A DNA stretch of 64,000 nt from Thermoanaerobacter sp. (GTDB taxonomy: Bacteria; Bacillota; Thermoanaerobacteria; Thermoanaerobacterales; Thermoanaerobacteraceae), in NCBI GenBank assembly GCA_014896455.1, contig JADBKJ010000001.1:1-64000 (forward strand), written 5' to 3'. The notes beneath the pieces were generated by a model. It did no database searches and was not told where the DNA came from. It saw only the letters and a list, made by a program, of their open reading frames with translations. This document shows positions 30,356 through 55,674 of this stretch, one piece after another (the first letter of the stretch is position 1; every line of letters begins with the position of its first letter). The position numbers were made by a program, and so were the translations under genes.

Positions 30356-30493
30356 TTTTCACCTCCAATTGTGAACTACTAAATAAAATATATGTCCTTA
30401 TGTATATATTTATTCTTATCTAATTAAGCCTCTTATCACCCCTACAAACTAAAAAATCTCTGTCTACAAAAAAACAAGGGATTTCTCCCTTGT

Positions 30494-30556
30494 CAGCTTG
30501 TTGACAAAGTCAAAAATTTTTAAATAGGATATTTTTGAAAGTTTGTCTACAGTCTA
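30494..30556 (-). repeat. Internally deleted copy (63 bp) of the terminator-associated repeat family
   Basis: Left end CAGCTTGTTGACAAAGTCAAAAA and right end GAAAGTTTGTCTACAGTCT match the full copies; flanked by 21-bp imperfect duplications at 30473-30493 and 30557-30577 (17/21 identical). Confidence 0.75.
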
Positions 30557-30578
30557 AACAATAGACTTCTCCTTTGTA

Positions 30579-45907: not shown

Positions 45908-46209
45908 AGGCGCCAATATGACGCCTCAGTTTGTTGACAAAGTTAAAAAATATTCAAAGGAGATATTTTGCATCGTCGCTCCGATGTTCCAAAGCGACAA
46001 AACACTAAGCTCGACCTTCGGGCTCCGCAGGGTACCGGGCACATTCGACATCCTTGTCTTAGTGCCCGCCTCCGCCCTCCGTGGCTACGGCCCTGCCTCC
46101 ACCCTTGGTCTCGCTAAGTTTTGTTACCGCTTTGTCACAAGTCGCACCGATTGCAAAATATCTCCTTTACGAAAGTTTGTCTACAGTCTGAGGCGCCAAT
46201 ATGACGCCT
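45908..46209 (-). repeat. Full-length terminator-associated repeat (264 bp, 45927-46190) flanked by 19-bp direct repeats AGGCGCCAATATGACGCCT
   Basis: Direct repeats 45908-45926 and 46191-46209 are identical; first 50 and last 43 nt of the element are identical to the 55.4-kb copy. Confidence 0.92.
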
Positions 46210-47460
46210 CTATTTCCTATATATTATTGCTCCAAGATTTTTTAACTTTTCTTCCATTTTTACATAGCCTCTGTCAATATGATAAATATCATTTATTTCA
46301 GTCCTACCTTCTGCAATAAGTCCAGCCAATACTAAGGCTGCTCCCGCTCTTAAATCTGTTGCTTTAACTTCTGCACCTGTCAAATGCCCTACTCCTGTAA
46401 CAACAGCACTCCTTCCTTCTATCTTTATATTTGCCCCCATACGCTTTAGCTCATCCACATGCATAAATCTATTTTCAAAAACTGTTTCTATTATAACGCT
46501 TGTCCCTTTTGCCACTGTCATCATAGCCATCATTTGAGCTTGCATATCTGTAGGAAAGCCTGGATAAGGAAGAGTTTTTATGTCCACCGCTTTATAATTT
46601 TTAATTCCTTTGACTCGCAGTCCTTTAGGTTCTTCTGTTATCTTAATTCCACATTCTGTTAATTTCGCAACTACAGACCTTATGTGATCCACTATGACAT
46701 TTTCTATAAGAACATTCCCTCCAGTCATTGCAGCTGCTACCATAAAGGTCCCCGCTTCAATTCTATCTGGTATGACAGTATGCTCAGCCCCTTTTAGCTC
46801 TTTTACTCCTTCAATTCTTATTGTATCTGTACCAGCACCCTTAATATTCGCTCCCATCTTGTTGAGAAAATTGGCAAGGTCAACAATTTCTGGCTCTTCC
46901 GCAGCATTTTCTATTATAGTAACTCCTTCTGCAAAAACTGCCGCCATCATGATGTTTTCTGTGGCTCCAACACTTGGAAAATCTAAATAAATTTTTTTGC
47001 CTGTCAATTTTTTAGCTCGTGCTTCTACATAACCATGTCCTATAGTAATATCTGCTCCCAAAGTTTGAAATCCTTTTAAATGCAAATCTATTGGGCGAGA
47101 ACCAATAGCACACCCACCTGGCATAGAAATTTTAGCATGGCCAAGCCTAGCGAGTATAGGTCCCATCACCAAAAACGATGCTCTCATTTTCTTCACCAAA
47201 TCATATGGGGCTTCTACATCTTTAATATCCACTTTTATTTTTAATTTCTCATTTTCAAATTCACATATAGCACCAAAATGCTTAATTAACTCTATCATGA
47301 CATTGACATCCTCTAAAGTAGGTATGTCGTCTAGCACTATTTCTCCTGATGATAATAAAGAAGCGGCAATTATAGGTAATACAGAATTTTTAGCTCCACT
47401 TATTTTTACACTTCCTTTAAGGGGTGGACTTTTTTCAACAATAAATTTCGTTTTTATCAC
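46210..47460 (-). CDS. murA: UDP-N-acetylglucosamine 1-carboxyvinyltransferase
   Basis: [38 protein letters not shown]. Confidence 0.96.
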
Positions 47461-55356: not shown

Positions 55357-55674
55357 AAAAGAACAGGTTTTCCTGTTCCTTTCAGTTTGTTGACAAAGTT
55401 AAAAAATATTCAAAGGAGATATTTTGCATCGTTATAGATGTTTTAAGCACGACAAAACTAAAGAAACTCGACTTTCGGGTTCAACTGAAGTGTTGGGCTG
55501 AAATCGACATCCTGTCTCAAGGTGCCGCCCTCGCCTCACCAAACTCTGACTCCTCCACCCTCAAAGTCTGCGCCCAAGTTTGTTACCGCTTTGTAACCGA
55601 GAGTGCGATTGCAAAATATCTCCTTTACGAAAGTTTGTCTACAGTCTGAAAAGAACAGGTTTTCCTGTTCCTTT
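55357..55674 (-). repeat. Full-length terminator-associated repeat (266 bp, 55383-55648) flanked by 26-bp direct repeats AAAAGAACAGGTTTTCCTGTTCCTTT
   Basis: Identical flanks at 55357-55382 and 55649-55674; ends identical to the 46-kb copy. Confidence 0.92.

Follow-up and report, generated by a model that had tools for sequence, protein, structure and literature searches.

The murA terminator element and its family

In the window analysed here (the whole 64-kb stretch, taken from a Thermoanaerobacter draft genome of 33 contigs, below called the source genome), the minus-strand gene murA ends in a stop codon (46210-46212) that touches a 19-bp hairpin, AGGCGCCAATATGACGCCT. The same 19 bp recur further downstream of murA and a 264-bp element fits exactly between the two copies (Table 1). 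Read on the minus strand, the murA-proximal hairpin continues into CAGACTG with no T-tract, and the distal hairpin is followed directly by TTTTTT. The element has perfect 17-bp inverted arms (45956-45972/46152-46168), its minus strand folds with -152 kcal/mol (z -12.6), and it contains no long ORF and no ORF related to the transposase of the partner IS described below. An initial annotation had described 19-bp copies bounding an element at 45927-46190, a T-tract retained by the distal copy and absent from the murA-proximal one, and long terminal inverted repeats with a GC-rich core; all three points held, the first to the base, the second in the minus-strand sequence, the third in the arms and the fold.

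Table 1. Features of the murA locus and other family members in the window
Feature	Position	Strand	Remarks
Distal murA terminator hairpin copy	45908..45926	-	T-tract retained; empty site in G002
264-bp MITE	45927..46190	.	Ends CAGTTTGTTGACAAAG...GTTTGTCTACAGTCTG
Left terminal repeat	45927..45942	+	16 bases identical to right end (reverse complement) of 1566-bp IS1182-family IS
Palindromic GC-rich core	45984..46140	-	Covarying RNA-like structure; weak full-length TwoAYGGAY match, 27.9 bits (gathering 43)
Right terminal repeat	46175..46190	+	Reverse complement CAGACTGTAGACAAAC matches IS left end CAGACTGTTGACAAAA
murA-proximal hairpin copy	46191..46209	-	Without T-tract; abuts murA stop codon
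murA (UDP-N-acetylglucosamine 1-carboxyvinyltransferase)	46210..47460	-	TIGR01072, 602 bits
Mini-member, 63 bp (30494-30556)	30473..30577	.	Both ends retained, core nearly absent; flanked by diverged hairpin copies
Second family member	55357..55674	.	266-bp element 55383-55648, diverged core, perfect 26-bp hairpin duplication AAAAGAACAGGTTTTCCTGTTCCTTT

Exact 19-mer direct repeats spaced 20-400 bp apart occur at only two places in the window, both flanking members of this family. The source genome holds at least 40 scored copies (126 first candidates, 40 of them scored) and 105 occurrences of the right-end motif at two mismatches or fewer. Across the genus, at least 24 matches are present in nine of ten Thermoanaerobacter genomes; in the tenth (G003) the copies have diverged. 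The element is a MITE with dozens of copies per Thermoanaerobacter genome: it is short, multicopy and devoid of a transposase gene, shares its ends with an autonomous IS, and has both target-site duplications (TSDs) and empty sites.

Duplicated hairpins and empty sites

Flanks were compared for 77 excised copies that have both ends, the null being flank pairs from different copies. Direct repeats at or above the 99.5th percentile of these mismatched pairs flank 64 of the 77. Apart from one of 9 bp, the TSDs are 16-33 bp long, and the hairpin they form differs in sequence at almost every site. Their centre coincides exactly with the hairpin dyad in 49/64 and lies within 1.5 nt of it in 58/64; in 87.5% of the TSDs, self-pairing about the centre exceeds the 99th percentile obtained when the window is shifted by 3-30 nt. 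T-tracts lie beside 48 and A-tracts beside 46 of the 64 TSDs (about 18% expected), and these tracts mark most of the target hairpins as terminators. Relative to the tract the element is found both ways round (13 against 11 clear cases; 35 sites have both tracts). A few sites are orthologous between genomes, so that distinct sites number nearer 60 than 64. No significant TSD was detected in 13 of the 77 copies; by eye some of these have diverged hairpins, and the others are likely to be assembly joins or old rearrangements.

Loci L020-L029 of the source genome, which are 93.2% identical and have common AGAGAGTATACGAAATACTCTC flanks beside unrelated hairpins, were excluded from the TSD count because they look like products of gap filling in the draft assembly. 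Copies L005, L013 and L015-L018, which were counted, are possibly joins of the same kind.

At the orthologous murA locus of G002 the hairpin is present once and there is no element, 138 of 140 bases being those of the source sequence minus the element and one 19-bp copy. Nine further source-genome sites all have empty counterparts in sister genomes (contiguous matches, best per site 95-100% identity; the nine predicted empty sequences were searched as one query). The source genome itself gave only half matches to the predicted empty sequences, overlapping by the hairpin. The initial annotation had proposed an insertion that duplicated the terminator hairpin, a reading to be abandoned if no orthologous murA locus were empty or if copies elsewhere lacked flanking hairpin duplications. 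It is supported and survived both tests, the first at G002 and the second in the 64 of 77 copies that bear hairpin duplications of their own. The accompanying remark, that an IS or MITE does not usually have a direct repeat of about 20 bp coinciding with a terminator stem, holds generally; such a repeat is found here because the ends of the element belong to a branch of the IS1182 family whose full-length members do likewise.

At this same murA hairpin, G008 and G009 each carry an element (about 89% identity), and G005 has one inserted the other way round. Repeated insertion at this hairpin is suggested, although an older copy may instead have undergone gene conversion.

IS1182-family partners and a proposed insertion mechanism

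G006 contains 1566-bp insertion sequences that terminate in CAGACTGTTGACAAAA and CTTTGTCAACAAACTG; each of these termini has its counterpart in one of the two unequal ends of the MITE. Their transposase scores 498 bits against NF033551 (cut-off 270 bits) and contains PF13751, PF05598 and PF01609, which assigns it to the IS1182 family. All eight IS copies in G008 have perfect hairpin TSDs (20-32 bp); three of the first four copies examined in G006 have hairpin TSDs. No hairpin TSD was found for two G006 IS copies or for four IS1182 copies in G009. One IS copy in G008 (L215) occupies the same hairpin as a MITE copy in the source genome (L030); mobilisation of the MITE in trans by this IS is inferred, and this common target is indirect evidence only. 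The sole IS copy of the source genome (L085) is decayed, and present mobility there is therefore unproven. The four G009 copies (L218-L221) have one end changed (TACTCGATTGACAAAA) and a common GGAGCTGAATA flank, without TSDs.

Whole-hairpin TSDs were also found around IS relatives with the same ends in Sutcliffiella (30 bp), Peribacillus (24 bp), Cytobacillus (35 bp), Enterococcus (22 and 19 bp) and Rhizobium (19 bp). These hairpin-duplicating IS1182 relatives of Bacilli and Rhizobium have CAG...GACAAA ends. No hairpin duplication was seen in five IS groups that match the IS1182 model and have other ends (G029, G026, G033, G015 and G011), in a weaker-scoring sixth other-end group in G008, or in the relatives ISCfr1 and those of Sinorhizobium, Paraburkholderia and Agrobacterium (in the last, no terminal repeats were located); the three ISEfa7 copies examined had no hairpin TSD. 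In the transposase tree, which has several long branches, the Firmicute hairpin-duplicators fall together (93/99 support) and the Rhizobium one is unplaced. By sequence, hairpin duplication is restricted to one end-type branch of IS1182, with exceptions within the branch: the two G006, four G009 and three ISEfa7 copies mentioned above, and two full-length plasmid IS copies (L260, L263). The plasmid copies have a different hairpin at each end, a pattern that recombination between two copies or a neighbouring deletion could leave.

ISEfa7-like elements of Enterococcus and Bacillaceae have the same CAGACTGTAGACAAA ends, transposases about 51-63% identical and, in several relatives, whole-hairpin TSDs; they are full-length ISs, whereas the 264-bp structured MITE family is seen only in Thermoanaerobacter. 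The ISMac2 MITEs of Methanosarcina (160-169 bp; PMC3852290) are likewise assigned to an IS1182-family IS, but their direct repeats, where legible in the published table, are of a few bp or absent and are not hairpins. IS1272 targets hairpins with deletion of the hairpin and without a TSD (PMC5678879), and terminators have been described as targets of IS1272 and TnSha1, IS1182-family elements of staphylococci (PMC4923244). The present elements resemble IS1272 and TnSha1 in the family to which those two papers assign them, in inserting either way round at hairpins that have no sequence in common and are often terminators, and in that one hairpin can be hit repeatedly. Unlike IS1272, which deletes or replaces its hairpin, the MITE duplicates it in 64/77 copies and does not meet the definition of IS1272-type replacement (hairpin deleted, no TSD). 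The TnSha-type IS1272 transposase (fabI-linked, L258) lies outside the hairpin-duplicating branch, weakly placed among long branches. Duplication of the stem-loop via joining at its 5' feet has been drawn only as a hypothetical, untested pathway b (PMC5678879); our data fit the prediction of this duplication branch of the IS1272 model, and whole-hairpin duplication would be the missing sibling of the hairpin-replacement model. ISfinder gives IS1182 direct repeats as 0-60 bp. No report of whole-hairpin TSDs for this branch was found in the literature searched, which did not cover a key IS review, and database entries with palindromic direct repeats may exist.

The MITE family, the matching asymmetric IS ends, the whole-hairpin TSDs of MITE and IS and the empty sites are shown by sequence. 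The reading we favour, and consider likely, is that the MITE and its IS1182-family partner insert at hairpins, mostly terminators, and duplicate the whole hairpin, the length of the duplicated target following that of the hairpin. An IS1182-family DDE transposase acting in trans would pick DNA hairpins, for the most part intrinsic terminators; the element ends would be joined to both 5' feet of the stem, putatively in an extruded cruciform, and repair of the long staggered gap would leave the entire hairpin on both sides. DDE transposases are usually assumed to leave a duplication of near-fixed length that is set by the enzyme. A TSD of no fixed length would be explained here because, at a four-way junction, the feet of the two arms would adjoin however long the arms are; TSDs that vary in length but stay centred fit attack on such a junction, an argument inferred from geometry alone. 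That the transposase recognises a cruciform or a four-way junction is itself only inferred, single-stranded hairpins at replication forks not being excluded as the route. At murA the inferred outcome is that the gene keeps a terminator, now 283 bp further downstream, and that its transcript includes the element in the 3' UTR. With TSD length set by the target hairpin at about 60 natural sites, junction-guided strand transfer becomes directly testable. By choosing terminators, an insertion sequence lands just 3' of genes, where it does almost no harm.

The best-surviving alternative, which we nevertheless regard as unlikely, is that the transposase binds the duplex sequence of the terminator (A-tract, GC stem, T-tract) through fixed contacts and cleaves it with a conventional stagger, the hairpin being incidental. 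In its favour, roughly three in four sites have flanking A-/T-tracts, and the TSD begins with A in 53/64 and ends with T in 50/64. Against it, the stems have no common sequence, and the TSDs vary from 16 to 33 bp yet stay centred on the dyad, where a cut of fixed geometry would give one length. It is very unlikely that the element is no transposon and is instead a host-beneficial RNA or REP-like unit spread by recombination between terminators. A covarying core structure with a consistent strand preference, and relatives that match an Rfam RNA family, speak for this reading; the precise CAG/CTG ends in common with an IS1182 IS and the clean empty sites are marks of transposition and speak against it, although it may still apply to the core alone. 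That the hairpin is part of the mobile unit and moves from site to site would account for the hairpins bounding most copies, but the hairpin is particular to each site, and the empty sites of sister genomes have that same hairpin once, which refutes a carried hairpin and leaves this explanation all but excluded.

The structured core and TwoAYGGAY

Of the two strands of the element, the minus strand gives the better fold in 78/78 copies and in 11/11 diverse cores. Across these 11 cores compensatory changes occur at 15 of 47 pairs, and covariation amounts to 42 cells compared with 16.6 in shuffles (0/500), slid structures giving at most 11. The shuffles ignore relatedness and a palindrome at the DNA level would covary too; the covariation supports, and does not prove, an RNA core.

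At the gathering threshold Rfam reports no RNA family in the 264-bp element. Below that threshold TwoAYGGAY (RF01731) aligns with the Thermoanaerobacter cores over its full length and on the minus strand only, at 28-40 bits (gathering 43), the best copy reaching about 40 bits. The MITE core is like TwoAYGGAY RNA in this full-length, one-strand alignment, and unlike it in scoring below the gathering value and in its ends, which are not those of the copies in G019. A model (R1) whose only input was cores of the MITE and of the sister genus recovered 20/20 G019/G021 copies on the same strand.

In G019, which belongs to another family of the same order, there are 32 TwoAYGGAY copies of up to 59.9 bits, in repeats with different ends. 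Loci L275-L294 (G019, G021) are TwoAYGGAY repeats with ends of their own, approximately GATTACACTGTAA...TACACTAAAATC, some of them with direct repeats of 8-12 bp. TwoAYGGAY in G019 and G021 thus appears to be a mobile element rather than a single-copy RNA gene, and the core appears to have been adopted more than once by mobile elements, which we offer as a lead and not as a finding. In a bolder joint reading, for which the arguments on either side seem to us evenly balanced, this IS1182 branch would read a cruciform junction and not a sequence, giving TSDs of any length, as dictated by the hairpin; in Thermoanaerobacter it would mobilise MITEs built around a TwoAYGGAY-like structured RNA; and the core would have been repeatedly adopted by elements with different ends. 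The link offers a possible origin for an RNA family of no known function.

A single-copy homologue of the core is present in the sister genus g2 (L056-L060, L062) at one conserved locus by a glycerate-kinase-like gene; it is without CAG ends, and its orientation with respect to the flanking sequence is reversed from one species to another.
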